DNA from: Thermoleophilia bacterium
Lineage (GTDB): Bacteria; Actinomycetota; Thermoleophilia; RBG-16-64-13
NCBI GenBank assembly: GCA_027493445.1
Contig: JAOSKU010000001.1
Span: forward strand, 2,996,822-3,060,821
DNA: 64,000 bases
Reading direction: 5' to 3'
The notes beneath the pieces are model-generated. The model was not told where the DNA came from. It did no database searches and saw only the letters and a program-made list of their open reading frames with translations. Made by a program: the position numbers and the translations under genes. Positions 9,312 to 27,199 of the stretch are shown one piece after another. Position 1 is the first letter of the stretch. Every line of letters begins with the position of its first letter.

Positions 9312-9408
9312 GGAGTGGCATCCGGTCTGGTGGCCGGCCCGGTCTTCAAAACCGCTGTTGGGCGGTGGTCCCGTCCAGGGTGGGTTCGATTCCCACGCCG
9401 CTCCGCCA
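9312..9408 (+). tRNA. selC: tRNA-Sec (anticodon UCA)
   Basis: A 97-base tRNA including encoded GCCA. The 8-bp acceptor stem pairs GGAGTGGC with GCCGCTCC. The 6-bp D stem CCGGTC/GGCCGG has a four-base loop. The anticodon loop CTTCAAA carries TCA at 9346-9348. A long variable arm follows, then the T arm GTGGG-TTCGATT-CCCAC. The 8-bp acceptor stem, long D stem and UCA anticodon are diagnostic of bacterial tRNA-Sec. One mismatch at the base of the anticodon stem was noted. Confidence 0.95.
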
Positions 9409-21513: not shown

Positions 21514-21933
21514 AGGGACGCCAATGCTGGCTCCTCACTACCCCGCACGCGCGACGGTTTCCCCCCACATACACCCGCGAGCCGAATGAGCTCCCCCGGG
21601 TTCAATAACGGCTCGTGAGTGATCGCCGGGGCGCATCACCCGCTTTGCGGGTTCCAGGTGTGATGCCACTGTGTTTGTTGATAGAATTGCAAAGAGAAAT
21701 GCGTCTTCAGACATCCTGACCGACAGGGGGGTTCGTCCGGATGCCGGGCATCGATCGACTGCTTCCCGCTCACTTTGGCGCCACGCTTCGCCCTACACAT
21801 TCTGCAGGGCGCCCCGCCGAGGCTTGGCAGTCACTCCCCAACGCCTCTGGCAGCGGCATCCGAAGGATTACTCCCTGCGAGCCGGCTGATGTGGCTGCTC
21901 TTCCCCGTCCGTCCTCTCCGATTGGAGGGGAAG
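21514..21933. other. Intergenic region before the regulator gene
   Basis: 420 bases. The frame of the next gene stays open upstream to 21775, but GTG 21934 with GGAGGGG is the likely start and the upstream translation looks non-coding. It contains a hairpin (ACCCGC-TTT-GCGGGT, 21638-21652) inside an outer CATCAC/GTGATG pairing, a possible terminator of the hyu/molybdoenzyme operon. Promoter(s) of the regulator must be here. Confidence 0.45.
21638..21652 (+). terminator. Hairpin after the molybdoenzyme gene
   Basis: Perfect six-bp stem with TTT loop, extended by an imperfect outer stem. There is no clear T-run after it, so terminator function is only plausible. Confidence 0.35.
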
Positions 21934-24498
21934 GTGACCCTCGATAGCGCGGGTGGTATGCGAAGCGGAGGTCCACCGGGGCTCAGCTCGGACAGACCTC
22001 GAATGCAGCAGGTGATCTACGAGAAGATCAGGGAAGCCGGAGCCTCAGGGGAGGGGCTCGAAGGCCTCTGTCGGGCGGCCGCCCGAGCCGTGGACGTGGT
22101 GGCGTTTGTCACAACGCGTGACGGCAAGGTTCTTGCATGTGGTCTTCCTGACACAGAACAGTTAGTGGAGCGACTGGGTGGCCCCGACTGGCCGTATGGC
22201 TTCCAGTGCGGCCACGCTGTGCGGTCGGCGCTCAAAAACGTGCGTGGGACGACCTTCGCACAGCCTGTCACGGTCGACCTTCCCCCAAGATCGAATAGAC
22301 GAACGCTCAGTCTCCGGCCTGCCGTCCTGGAGGGAAACATCGAGGGCGTGGCCTGTCTGCTATACGAAGGTGAGCAGACGGAGGTGGTTTCCTGGGCCCT
22401 ACTCTGTCTGTCGGGCGAGGCGGAACACCATTTCCGAGAGATCAGGCTGATGGCGGAGCTGGAGCACCGTTTCCTCTCCGGCCTGGTTGACGACTTGATG
22501 TCGCCGTCGGCATCAAGCAGCGCCATGTTGGTCGAGCGGCTGACTGCGCAAGGCTACGAGACCAGCGCTCCTTTCTTCGTTGTTCTCTTGGAGTTGGCGT
22601 CGCCGGAAGATGCGGCGGCGGTCCGCGCCAGGGTCATGCAGCTCGTCCGGGACTTGGATAGCGGCGGAAGTCGCAGGACTCTCGTAAAGTGTCAGGGGTC
22701 ACGCCTCGCCGTCGTTCACCAGCCGCGCCATGGAGTCCGCTCTTTGCTGGACGAGCCCGGGGACTTCTATCAACGCGTTGCGCGTCGCGAAAGCGGAATT
22801 CCGGTCTGGGTGTCGAGTGGCCGACCGTACCGGATGGCCGAGGGCGTGTACAGGAGCCACGAGGAGGCCGAACGGGCGCTGGAGATAGTTCGTCAGCGCG
22901 CCCCGACCGGGGGCGTTCTGGCGTTCGCGGACCTTGGCATGCTGAACGTCCTCTTCGAGTCTCTGGGTTCCTCGGCCTCCCTGGAATTCATGGACGAGTT
23001 GCTGGAGCCACTACTCAGCTATGACGCCAAGAAGAAGCACAACGTACTCATCCACACCATCGCTTCCTACTTGAGCCACGACTGCAATCTCGCGGAAACA
23101 GCCTCCGCTCTCTACCTGCACAAGAACACTCTCCGCTACAGGTTGACCCTCATCGAACGGTTGACCGGCCACCGCCTCAGTTCGCTAGAGACGCGAACAG
23201 CCTTCCTAGTGGCTCTGAACCTCAAATCGCTCATGCCACCAGCCCAGGCCACCCACTCGTCGCGAAACGGGAGCGTACCGGCGGCCGATCGCAGTGGCCT
23301 GGTCGCTTGGTCATCAAGTGGTTCGACTGTAGCAAAACCGATCAAGATCGGCTCTGTCTTGCCTCTTTCGGGTTTCGCGGCGGCGGATGGCCTCGAGCAG
23401 CGGCAAGCCGCCACCTTGGCGGTCGAGCAGTGGAATGCGCGTGGAGGGGCCGCGGGCCGCGATATAGACTACGTCGTTGTGGATGTTGGCGACATGGAAC
23501 CTGAGAACATGATGTTCGCCTTCCACAAGCTAATCGTAGAAGAAAACGTCGATGCGATTGTAAACGGTTACCTACTTTTCTCTGGCCCTGAATACGAAAT
23601 GGTTGCGGACCTAGAGACTATATACTTGCATGTCAATACGCTTGAATCAAATCCGCAACTCTACAGTTCCAATCCAGAGCGATACTGGATGTGCTTTATG
23701 TGCGACCCATCTCAGAAATGGTACGGCATAGGTTTTCCATACTTCTTGGAAGAAATAGAACGAAACAAACTGTGGATACCAAGTAAGAAGAGTGTTGCTA
23801 TCGTATCTGCTACTGATCCATATGCATCGGGAATTGCTGATAATCTCAGTACGAGTATGACTAAGCACGGCTGGGATATTTCCATGTATGATGTGGTGCA
23901 ATCGCCCGTCCGGGACTGGGACGCAATACTGGAGAAAGTGCACAGTCGTAAGCCAGATGTGGTGTTCGTGTCGGATTTGGCACTGAATGACATAGCTTCG
24001 TTCACCTTAAGATTTAAGGAAAACCCTACACAGGCACTGTTGTATGGTCAATACGTGCCATCCTTACAAGAATATGTGGATATTACCGGTGAAGCGTGTG
24101 ATGGCGTTGTATGGTCTACAGTAGTAGGGGTAGTGCCCGGCGATTTGGCTGACCAGTTTTATGAAGATTATGAGGGGAGATGGGGCGTTCTGCCGGGGCG
24201 CAGCATAGGGGGGATACTGTATGATGAGATTAATCTGTATCTGACTGCTGTCGCAGTGGCGCATGGTACAAGGGACAAGCGCGAAATTGCTGCCACATTG
24301 GGAAAGATGTGGTATAGAGGCGTGTGCGGGGTTTATCGCTTTACAAGCGATAGACATGTCCCGTCGTATCCATACGAGGTGCAGGATCCGGCCTCAGGGC
24401 AAGCCCACTTGTTCGTTCAGATTCAGGACGGTCAACATCGTATCGTCTATCCCCGCCCCTACACCGAGGGCACATTCCGGATTCCGAGCTGGTTCTAG
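21934..24498 (+). CDS. PucR/CdaR-type transcription factor fused to a C-terminal ABC-type substrate-binding domain
   Basis: 854 residues from GTG 21934 (GGAGGGG upstream). Residues ~15-180 are a GAF-like sensor region and ~200-360 a CdaR/GGDEF-like segment. ~365-425 hold the PucR HTH: DCNLAETASALYLHKNTLRYRL. From ~468 to the end is a full branched-chain-type binding domain, aligning end to end with the mature part of the binding protein at 9892 and about 60% identical by eye (IKIGSVLPLSGFAAADGLEQ; both end in WF). There is no signal peptide, so the domain should sense ligand in the cytoplasm. It probably controls the transporter/hyu genes. The fused domain uses visibly more A/T-ending codons than its neighbours. 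Confidence 0.88.
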   Translation: MTLDSAGGMRSGGPPGLSSDRPRMQQVIYEKIREAGASGEGLEGLCRAAARAVDVVAFVTTRDGKVLACGLPDTEQLVERLGGPDWPYGFQCGHAVRSALKNVRGTTFAQPVTVDLPPRSNRRTLSLRPAVLEGNIEGVACLLYEGEQTEVVSWALLCLSGEAEHHFREIRLMAELEHRFLSGLVDDLMSPSASSSAMLVERLTAQGYETSAPFFVVLLELASPEDAAAVRARVMQLVRDLDSGGSRRTLVKCQGSRLAVVHQPRHGVRSLLDEPGDFYQRVARRESGIPVWVSSGRPYRMAEGVYRSHEEAERALEIVRQRAPTGGVLAFADLGMLNVLFESLGSSASLEFMDELLEPLLSYDAKKKHNVLIHTIASYLSHDCNLAETASALYLHKNTLRYRLTLIERLTGHRLSSLETRTAFLVALNLKSLMPPAQATHSSRNGSVPAADRSGLVAWSSSGSTVAKPIKIGSVLPLSGFAAADGLEQRQAATLAVEQWNARGGAAGRDIDYVVVDVGDMEPENMMFAFHKLIVEENVDAIVNGYLLFSGPEYEMVADLETIYLHVNTLESNPQLYSSNPERYWMCFMCDPSQKWYGIGFPYFLEEIERNKLWIPSKKSVAIVSATDPYASGIADNLSTSMTKHGWDISMYDVVQSPVRDWDAILEKVHSRKPDVVFVSDLALNDIASFTLRFKENPTQALLYGQYVPSLQEYVDITGEACDGVVWSTVVGVVPGDLADQFYEDYEGRWGVLPGRSIGGILYDEINLYLTAVAVAHGTRDKREIAATLGKMWYRGVCGVYRFTSDRHVPSYPYEVQDPASGQAHLFVQIQDGQHRIVYPRPYTEGTFRIPSWF

Positions 24499-25007
24499 GG
24501 AGAAGACCGCGGGGCTTGTCTGCCATTGGGAGCAAGCCGCGCCGGGGCAGCGCGGTCGTATCCCCGGAGCACGGGTGGGGGATCGGCCAAAGACCTATCT
24601 CCGTAGAGTCCCGTAGTGGACGTCGAATACTCTGACCGTCCGGTCATCTGACCCCCGCTTCGGAGGAGGAACCAAGGGACTCTTCGATCGCGACGACGGC
24701 TGAGACAAGTTGCGCGTCCCGGCATGGCGGGCCCACCGGTGGGTGGTGGAAGCCTGCCATTCCTGGCTCAACCGCAACCGCGGCCTGCTCATCCGCGCGT
24801 CGCGTCCCTCAGAGAGCAGGCCTGGCAACGGCCCAACTGGTGCCGAAAGCTGACGAGGGTTGGCTGCCGAGCACAAGCCGCAGATAGCACTTGCGTCGGA
24901 GTTCTGTGACGGACGTCCATGGTGAACCGTCTGGGCCACTGTTAGTGTTCAAGTGGGTCAGGCTGGACGCTTCCGATGGGTTTCACCACGAGAAGGAGGC
25001 TGCGGGG
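24499..25007. other. Intergenic region with transposase remnant
   Basis: 509 bases between the regulator and mtbB. Apart from the IS5-type remnant at 24704-24856, nothing is recognised. AAGGAGG at 24993-24999 is the mtbB ribosome-binding site. Confidence 0.4.
24704..24856 (+). pseudogene. IS5-family transposase C-terminal remnant
   Basis: One frame reads KLRVPAWRAHRWVVEACHSWLNRNRGLLIRASRPSES before drifting to a stop. RWVVE-x3-SWLNR-x3-LLIR is the conserved C-terminal segment of IS5-type DDE transposases, including the catalytic glutamate. An in-frame stop lies just upstream and no inverted repeats were found, so this is a decayed fragment. Confidence 0.6.
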
Positions 25008-26414
25008 ATGGGTATCATTCGCACTCGGATGGGTGACGGCCGCGCGGTAGAGTTGACCGTCGACGACATACGCGCCGACATCCAGGCGGGCACCGAGGAG
25101 GCCGCCGACAGAGGCAGGATCCCCGCATTGACCGGCAACGAGCAGGAGTGGCTGGTAGAGCTCTTCTGCAGGCCCGATCGGGTCGTTGGCGTTGAGCAGG
25201 GCCACGAGGTGGTGCTCACCGACGACGGCTCCGTGAACGCTCTGTACGGCGCCCAGAGCTCAAGTGGCGTTGGCGTGCCCGTGAGCCGGGAGATGGGGAT
25301 CAGGGTGTACGAGCGGGCCTTCTGCATGGACACCATGGAGGTGGGACATCCCGACTACTCCTTTAAGCCGGTCAGGCCCATCGTGGCCCTGGAGCAGCAG
25401 GCCATGGAGTCGACTCTGCTGGGGACCATCATCCCCATGTATTACGGTGCTATGCCCAATCTTGCTCTCTACGCCCGGCCGGATGGGCCGTTTCCGAACC
25501 CTGCCGACCTTCTGCCTGCGGGTCGGATCGCCGATGCTCGTATCGCACAGGAAGAAGCCGCCGAGGTGTGCTCTCGAGACATGGTGTATGTGGCGCGGAA
25601 GATGTGGGAGGTCGGCGCCGACGGCATCAACTTCGACACCACTGCCTCGGCCGGTGACGCGGAGTTCCTCGCGACGCTGCGGGCGGTGGAGCAGGTAGCT
25701 GGGACCACGGGCTTGAGCATCGAGGTCGGCATGGCTGCCGAATTCGTCCTGGGCATGCATGGCGAAGTCGAGTACCAGGGTACTCGTTTGGCCGGCCTAT
25801 ATCCGCACGAACAGGTCAGGCTGGTCGAGATGGCCGGCGCGCACGTCTTCGGCCCTGCGGTCAACACCAACACCCGCCGCTCGAGCCCCTGGAATGTCTC
25901 CCGTGCGGTCACGTTCGTCAAGGCCTGCTCACAAGCCGCGGGGATCCCGGTTCACGCCAACGTCGGCATTGGGGTGGGCGGGGTCCCCATGTGTGAGACT
26001 GCCCCTGTCAGCATGGTCACGCGGGCCTCGGCTGCCATGGTTGAGATCGGCCGCGTGGACGGCTTATAGGTGGGTGCGGGCGATCCTTTTGGGATGCCCG
26101 TATCTCATGCGCTTGCCTCCGGAATGGGGGGCATCCGTACGGCCGGAGATCTGGTGGCTCGGATGCAACTCCACCGCAAGATGCGACTTCCTGAGGCAAA
26201 GGCGTATGTCGCTGACAGGCTCAAGGTGTCCACCGTGGACCTGTCTGACGAAGTGATCATGCGAGAGTTGAGGGAGGAGCTGGACATCGGGGTTATTACG
26301 TCGGTTCCGGGTGCGGCTAAGGGTCTTGCGGCCAAAGCACGCATCGCACGCCTGCTGGACATACGCGTCAACTCGGTCGACGTATTGAAGGAGAAGATGG
26401 AGTTGGGTTCCTAG
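25008..26414 (+). CDS. mtbB: Dimethylamine methyltransferase with in-frame amber (pyrrolysine) codon
   Basis: MtbB moves a methyl group from dimethylamine to a corrinoid protein. The frame starts at ATG 25008 (AAGGAGG eight bases upstream) and is interrupted only by TAG at 26067-26069. Reading through gives 468 residues with pyrrolysine at 354, close to Pyl356 of the Methanosarcina enzyme. It is flanked by the family context [27 protein letters not shown]. Upstream family blocks include [31 protein letters not shown] and [15 protein letters not shown]; downstream [21 protein letters not shown] cognate corrinoid protein follows. Pyl tRNA and synthetase genes are not in this window. Confidence 0.93.
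26067..26069 (+). other. Amber codon read as pyrrolysine in mtbB
   Basis: TAG in phase with conserved MtbB sequence on both sides, at the position where the family carries pyrrolysine. TAG is also the ordinary terminal stop of many genes here (selB, the 9892 binding protein, the fusion regulator, the corrinoid gene), so decoding must be context- or condition-dependent. Confidence 0.88.
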
Positions 26415-26551
26415 CGGGTGAAGGCGACTGACGCATCGTGAGCTGGCCGTCACGCCTCTGGGGGTCGTGCGCCCATGAGAGGCCACGTTTCTGGGAACGC
26501 TGACAGAAAAGGCGGGAAGATCGTGATCCCCAACGGAGAAAGTAGGGTCTC

Positions 26552-27199
26552 ATGACCGAACAAGAGCTCCTCGACGCCGCGAAAGCTGCCGTGGTGGCCG
26601 CCGACGAAGAAAAAGCCATCGAGGTGGCCCGCCAGGCGGTAGCCCTGGGCCTCGATCCCCTGCGAGTCATAAACGAAGGCTTTACCCCGGGCATGCGGCA
26701 GGTGGGCGACCTCTTCGAGCGGGGCACCATGTTCTTGCCCGAGGTGATCATCGCCAGTGAAGCCATGGTGGCCGCCGTGGCCATCTTGGAAGAGAACCTG
26801 CCCGCCGAGCAAAAGGAGAAGCAAGCCGGCATCGCCGTGCTTGGCACCATCGAAGGGGACGTGCACGACATCGGCAAGGGCATCGTGGCCACCCTCATGC
26901 GGGTCTACGGCTTTAAGGTGCACGACTTAGGTAGAGACGTGCCCCTCCAGAGGTTCGTGGACGAGGCCAAGAGCTCCGGGGCCCAGCTCGTGGGCTCCTC
27001 CGCTCTTATGACCACCACCATGGTGGGCCAGAAGCAGCTGGAGAAGCTGCTGAAAGAGGCCGGCATCCGCGAGCAGGTGAAGACCATGGTGGGCGGGGCG
27101 GTGGTCACCCAGTACTGGGCCGACAAGATCGGAGCCGACGCCTACGCCGAGAACGCCCAGGAAGCGGTGGCCAAGGCCCTTGAGCTGGTGGAAGGGTAG
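26552..27199 (+). CDS. mtbC: Dimethylamine corrinoid protein, MtbC-like
   Basis: 215 residues. The N-terminal helical cap is about 1-85. The B12-binding Rossmann domain has EGDVHDIGKGIV, where His105 is the lower cobalt ligand, then GSSALMTTTM and the GG-containing VGGAVVTQYWADKIGADAYAENA. It accepts methyl from MtbB and passes it to a methyltransferase (MtbA or a methyl-H4folate enzyme), not seen here. It lies 137 bases after mtbB on the same strand. Confidence 0.9.
   Translation: MTEQELLDAAKAAVVAADEEKAIEVARQAVALGLDPLRVINEGFTPGMRQVGDLFERGTMFLPEVIIASEAMVAAVAILEENLPAEQKEKQAGIAVLGTIEGDVHDIGKGIVATLMRVYGFKVHDLGRDVPLQRFVDEAKSSGAQLVGSSALMTTTMVGQKQLEKLLKEAGIREQVKTMVGGAVVTQYWADKIGADAYAENAQEAVAKALELVEG

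Follow-up and report, generated by a model that had tools for sequence, protein, structure and literature searches.

When UAG remains in use as a stop codon, how are those UAGs which are to be read as pyrrolysine (Pyl) told apart from those at which translation simply ends? This choice of UAGs has been described as an unsolved problem, one for which no cis signals had been found (PMC8211752). The question is raised here by mtbB, a gene found within a 64,000-nucleotide stretch of Thermoleophilia bacterium DNA ('the window', meaning that whole stretch), with this gene and its downstream neighbor consisting of the following:

25008 to 26414, plus strand: mtbB, encoding dimethylamine:corrinoid methyltransferase, with UAG-354 read through (PF09505 match across the TAG; homologues).
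26067 to 26069, plus strand: the internal UAG, codon 354, pyrrolysine (TAG in 71 of 71 actinobacterial MtbB).
26412 to 26414, plus strand: the terminal stop of mtbB, also UAG (frame translation).
26552 to 27199, plus strand: the cognate corrinoid protein, MtbC-like (TIGR02370, 258.4 bits vs a cut-off of 215.3; B12-binding Pfam domains).

Translated from its ATG at 25008, the mtbB frame has a TAG at codon 354 and is otherwise open until the second TAG at 26412-26414. The Pfam profile Dimeth_PyL (PF09505) matches this frame at full length, i.e., over profile positions 4-462 of 463, and does so straight through the TAG (682.5 bits against a cut-off of 25; E 3e-205). Translated homologues from 13 other loci also align through the amber point, with exactly one TAG there in each, and across 15 related genomes about 80 of about 80 mtbB matches spanning the amber site possess one internal stop, which always is TAG. 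Four further matches in those genomes have no stop, these being N-terminal fragments that end short of the amber site. An earlier note on this DNA had placed a TAG at residue 354 within continuous MtbB sequence, and this is confirmed by the open frame, by the profile match across the TAG, and by the homologues. The same note expected gene callers to split mtbB into a 353-residue protein and a 114-residue tail. The tail, taken as its own ORF, indeed is 114 aa long (26070-26414). For the front part a naive ORF finder starts from a TTG at 24891, upstream of the ATG, giving a product of 392 aa rather than 353. Beyond the terminal UAG an in-frame TGA is found 9 codons on (window 26412-26441), so that terminal read-through would add a short tail.

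The assembly surrounding the window is 4.70 Mb in 12 contigs and 91.8% complete, and named relatives of the window's mtbB are mostly from Actinomycetota MAGs, one of which is labelled Thermoleophilia. A pyl cluster is found on the 4.6-Mb contig which also holds the window (C1), at C1:87-120 kb and so at a distance of about 2.9 Mb. It includes tRNA-Pyl(CUA), the product of pylT, at C1:102705-102776 along with, as judged by NCBIfam curated cut-offs, PylSc (279.6 bits, cut-off 178), PylB (434 bits, cut-off 348), PylC (321 bits, cut-off 248), and PylD (222 bits, cut-off 150), and also mtbB, mtmB, mttB, and corrinoid protein genes. Pyl genes of this genome with an in-frame TAG include three mtbB, mtmB, and two mttB. 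The search for pyl genes which the earlier note had proposed thus succeeds for pylT, pylSc, pylB, pylC, and pylD and, as these occupy the same genome, that note's interpretation of the amber codon as pyrrolysine therefore stands. As for pylSn, this gene lies between pylT and pylSc but, as assembled, its frame is broken by an indel of one base within a G7 run (L016:13023-13036; C1 about 103023-103036), while the same 92-93 residues constitute one open frame in four relatives. A second mtmB copy is frameshifted as well, with C4 where the first copy has C5 (L016:9481-10871; C1:99481-100871). The simplest reading is that both frameshifts probably are homopolymer errors of assembly.

Those two frameshifts are what could be cited in favor of the amber codon being a true stop, with mtbB then a pseudogene or else the source of a 353-residue product only. 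That we hold to be very improbable, as no other pyl gene is disrupted, every relative keeps the tail, the TAG is common to about 80 homologues, and the frameshifts fall at homopolymers. The window's mtbB is, that is, an ordinary pyrrolysine MtbB, sharing with methanogen MtbB (Methanosarcina; PF09505) the full-length family match, the position of the Pyl UAG, and an adjoining corrinoid protein, and differing in having a bacterial host. With PylB, PylC, and PylD making Pyl, tRNA-Pyl(CUA) as charged by PylSn plus PylSc would read UAG-354, and the Pyl of the MtbB active site would, going by homology to known enzymes, pass a methyl group from dimethylamine to the neighboring corrinoid protein. The scanned genes of the pyl cluster yielded no Pyl-specific elongation factor; ordinary EF-Tu is what Pyl-tRNA binds to (PMC2933860). 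The genome appears to encode selenocysteine as well as pyrrolysine, with a tRNA-Sec (UCA) found at window 9312-9408 on the plus strand. An MttB gene at C1:4427833 with two internal TGAs was considered as a selenocysteine candidate and rejected, its TGAs lying upstream of the real start.

That UAG also still serves as a stop in this genome is seen with a census of stop codons over 259 kb, in which a home-made, simple gene caller yielded 194 genes, 110 ending with TGA, 68 with TAG, and 16 with TAA. Of the 68 TAG-ending calls, 7 at most end at the internal amber of a Pyl gene. UAG is a common stop, mtbB's own terminator included, so the code is not fully reassigned, and a UAG that is to be read as Pyl therefore must be told apart. 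Indeed, with UAG closing roughly a third of genes, the question of how a sense UAG is recognized becomes a sharp one. The features of mtbB which may bear on that recognition are these:

26064 to 26066, plus strand: the UUA Leu codon directly 5' of UAG (UUR in 61 of 63 actinobacterial MtbB vs 5% elsewhere in the same genes).
26131 to 26146, plus strand: 5' arm of a hairpin, codons 375-380 (covariation; fold z -3.75).
26147 to 26150, plus strand: the loop, AGAU, its A being the third base of GGA codon 380 (invariant, 71 of 71 Actinomycetota and 6 of 6 Desulfitobacteriia).
26151 to 26166, plus strand: 3' arm of the hairpin, codons 382-387 (covariation).
26067 to 26166, plus strand: match to Rfam PYLIS_2 (RF02509; 87.2 bits, gathering score 36).

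Codon choice was assessed over 71 distinct actinobacterial mtbB, drawn from two families of one class, the window's own among them, and 45-99% identical to the query. Every conserved column was set against the remaining codons of those genes, and two deviate strongly, codon 353 for Leu (UUA 18, UUG 43, CUG 2; 5.1 bits) and codon 380 for Gly (GGA in 71 of 71; 4.4 bits), the next column reaching 1.2 bits only. The other 22 conserved Leu columns of mtbB range from 0 to 12% UUR, and in the genes sampled from the window's genome UUA makes up just 38 of the 6903 Leu codons. The same preference is seen with other Pyl genes, i.e., UUG in 16 of 16 cases of Leu preceding UAG in Pyl-mttB and UUR before UAG in 6 of 6 actinobacterial mtmB. 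The codon before UAG is under selection in bacterial Pyl genes. In archaeal MtbB, from the class of a Methanomassiliicoccaceae genome, Ile or Val precedes Pyl in 25 of 26. Over the 259 kb, long frames having an in-frame UUA-UAG consist only of the genome's five Pyl genes and one 151-codon frame; the latter, found in L023, was considered as a gene and rejected as a spurious ORF. Genomes of one family (f76, G410-G423) carry 5 to 11 mtbB-family matches each, some of them contig-end fragments, and in some a Tyr (UAC) replaces the Leu before Pyl; this set possibly includes enzymes with new substrates.

The GGA of codon 380 sits in a motif, GCN-GGA-GAY-CUN-GU, and is present as well in the one Gemmatimonadota mtbB. 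What constrains this codon becomes apparent upon an unbiased scan of the whole mtbB gene for mutual information between third codon positions (8290 pairs). The antidiagonal pairs 378/383, 376/385, 379/382, and 377/384 are four of the top nine, and the sum for this antidiagonal is 2.07, with 0.73 for the next. A model at window 26131-26166, with 16 stem positions and AGAY as the loop, has 86.1% of its cells paired vs 26-40% when it is slid, and scores 0.205 for covariation, with 0.079 for shuffles. Third bases pair at 0.83 in Actinomycetota mtbB vs 0.45 for synonymous shuffles and at 0.88 vs 0.40 in six Desulfitobacteriia mtbB, where A-U often stands in place of G-C. With independent contrasts on the protein tree, which are few, the two inner codon pairs come out at about 4.8:0 and 4.3:0 and a third at 3.7:0.6; the outermost, 376-385, is at 3.3:2.2 and so is unsupported on its own. 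Archaeal mtbB (n=26) show no pairing above chance at the hairpin (third-base pairing 0.40 vs 0.35 for shuffles). The window's own copy has mismatches mid-stem and yet its fold z is -3.75. Re-centred folding-energy windows give a mean z of -1.2 for mtbB and -1.5 for mttB, while windows on a fixed grid cut the stem and missed the hairpin. RNAalifold by itself gives only a weak hairpin, the third-position covariation being decisive.

The mtbB hairpin lacks the trailing U-run of an intrinsic terminator and hence is not one. A pairing between the motif GGAGAU and the UAG itself, as checked by eye, was unsupported. GGAG was also considered as an internal Shine-Dalgarno site, a reading that was abandoned since the covarying stem accounts for the constraint on codons and a conserved start codon at a suitable distance is missing.

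This hairpin is in part a known one, as its inner 7 pairs and loop coincide with the second hairpin of PYLIS_2, although the hairpin in the window is the longer of the two, at 16 positions with covariation. Covariation thus supports the distal of the PYLIS_2 hairpins, while none of the pairs of the UAG-proximal one are among the top covarying pairs in the whole-gene ranking. PYLIS was proposed for mtmB, where its replacement reduced Pyl insertion without eliminating it, with limited covariance for the mtmB element and nothing similar seen in mtbB (PMC2933860). A 2013 study (PMC3639795) predicted structures for mtmB and mtbB but no significant one for mttB. Pyl in bacteria of this phylum also is already published. 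Actinobacteriota MAGs from Stordalen Mire express Pyl mttB and mtbB (PMC10805028), the same trait and phylum as here; cis elements are not described in the passages compared. Relative to the literature compared, with subscription papers and preprints outside of that comparison and no absolute priority claimed, what appears to be new is the strength and the bacterial restriction of the mtbB covariation, to which may be added the mttB hairpin (below), the UUR rule, and the finding that a genome of this kind commonly ends its genes with UAG.

The MtbB family does not include non-Pyl members for comparison, and such a control instead is supplied by mttB. In 41 actinobacterial Pyl-mttB the codons +22 to +25 after UAG read GCG-UUG-GCA-GGN, with strictness as in mtbB, while in 56 non-Pyl mttB of the same genomes no codon column exceeds 0.72 bits. 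The block folds as GUUGG-CAGGNN-CCAAC, that is, as a hairpin different from that of mtbB but at a similar distance from UAG. The mttB genes match Rfam PYLIS_3 (RF02510); this bacterial mttB hairpin is absent from the PYLIS_3 structure. All five pairs are formed in 40 of the 41 (0.6 expected with synonymous codon draws) vs 2 of 55 non-Pyl mttB, and in 1 of 26 archaeal Pyl-mttB. Compensations are seen as well, in that GCA is matched by AAU, CUG by AGC (an Asn-to-Ser change), and UUA, in Desulfitobacteriia, by GCU. The residues ALAGAN are encoded too by the three closest non-Pyl paralogues, but without the UUG-GCA (TTG-GCA) codons. Among Pyl-mttB, 11 of 28 from Desulfitobacteriia and one actinobacterial gene (L219) are without the hairpin.

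Also in the pyl cluster is an MttB homologue which has no TAG (L016:2643-4103; C1:92643-94103; PYLIS_3 score 58.9 bits), and which looks like a Pyl-MttB whose amber and hairpin codons have been lost. TAG is likewise absent from a set of homologues in the MtmB family (PF05369; L164, L149-L155, L158-L163, L165, L167), these being non-Pyl relatives of MtmB with about 25-33% identity to Pyl-MtmB.

This control bears on a rival explanation. With amber suppression of a plain sort, tRNA-Pyl would do no more than compete with release factor 1, and the hairpin and UUR codon would be kept for some other reason, e.g., to stabilize the mRNA or to help the barrel fold during translation. Reviews indeed describe Pyl incorporation as resting on competition, and insertion required no cis element in E. 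coli or when mtmB1 was tested (cited in PMC2933860, PMC8211752), while the hairpin lies beyond the ribosome's footprint. A general mRNA function, however, predicts neither a hairpin that tracks the presence of UAG, as seen with mttB, nor a codon anomaly which abuts UAG in three gene families, and this counts against plain suppression, which we consider fairly unlikely. There is good support for the hairpin being an RNA structure under selection and linked, in bacteria, to amber decoding.

How such a structure might act is less readily seen. Bacterial SECIS elements likewise are hairpins within coding sequence, 3' of a recoded stop. SECIS is directly adjacent to that stop, whereas the mtbB hairpin starts 61 nt past UAG (26069 to the stem at 26131), and SECIS has SelB, while no SelB-like factor is known for Pyl. 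At 61 nt the hairpin is beyond the footprint of a ribosome that is decoding UAG, so that a direct action is not obvious, and because of this distance the hairpin probably acts either via a bound factor or by sensing the passage of ribosomes. The latter could take the form of a sensor of termination: When charged tRNA-Pyl is scarce, translation would stop at UAG, the then ribosome-free hairpin would fold, and a nuclease or other factor would bind its loop and shut down the transcript, whereas read-through would melt the hairpin. A spacing of 61-70 nt fits a structure whose folding requires that ribosomes do not pass, the conservation of a loop A by two unrelated genes hints at a binding partner, and Acetohalobium makes Pyl only on trimethylamine (PMC8211752). 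Such a sensor nevertheless leaves the UUR codon unexplained, and no nuclease site or factor for it has been identified, making it a distinctly unlikely account.

The explanation we instead find somewhat probable is that UAG-354 is decoded as Pyl with both the UUR codon and the hairpin biasing that decoding. With UAG in the A-site, the UUR codon (here UUA) would be in the P-site, where its tRNA-Leu may help to tilt decoding. The hairpin, perhaps by way of a loop-binding factor, would contribute to the same shift in competition at UAG, i.e., from release factor 1 to Pyl-tRNA. Any such effect of hairpin or UUR codon on decoding we infer from patterns of conservation. More generally, and tentatively enough that we would stop short of calling it probable, Pyl bacteria, unlike methanogens, may mark their sense UAGs by means of a UUR codon together with a family-specific hairpin about 60-90 nt on, one with a conserved loop A and a putative trans factor. 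Bacterial sense UAGs do come with a hairpin that covaries and a rare codon that is nearly fixed, both being absent from archaeal orthologues and from close non-Pyl paralogues, and together these supply concrete bases to mutate. Should they act on decoding, they would be useful as context elements for genetic code expansion.

Two potential regulators adjoin the genes considered here. Upstream of mtbB (window 21775-24498, plus strand) is a 907-aa PucR-type regulator (GGDEF_2, HTH_30) fused to a C-terminal periplasmic-binding-protein domain, which possibly is an amine-sensing regulator. Adjoining a Pyl mttB, at L017:9199-10353 (C1:119199-120353), an Lrp/AsnC-type DNA-binding domain is fused to an MtbC-like corrinoid-binding protein, possibly as a regulator sensing corrinoid or methyl state.
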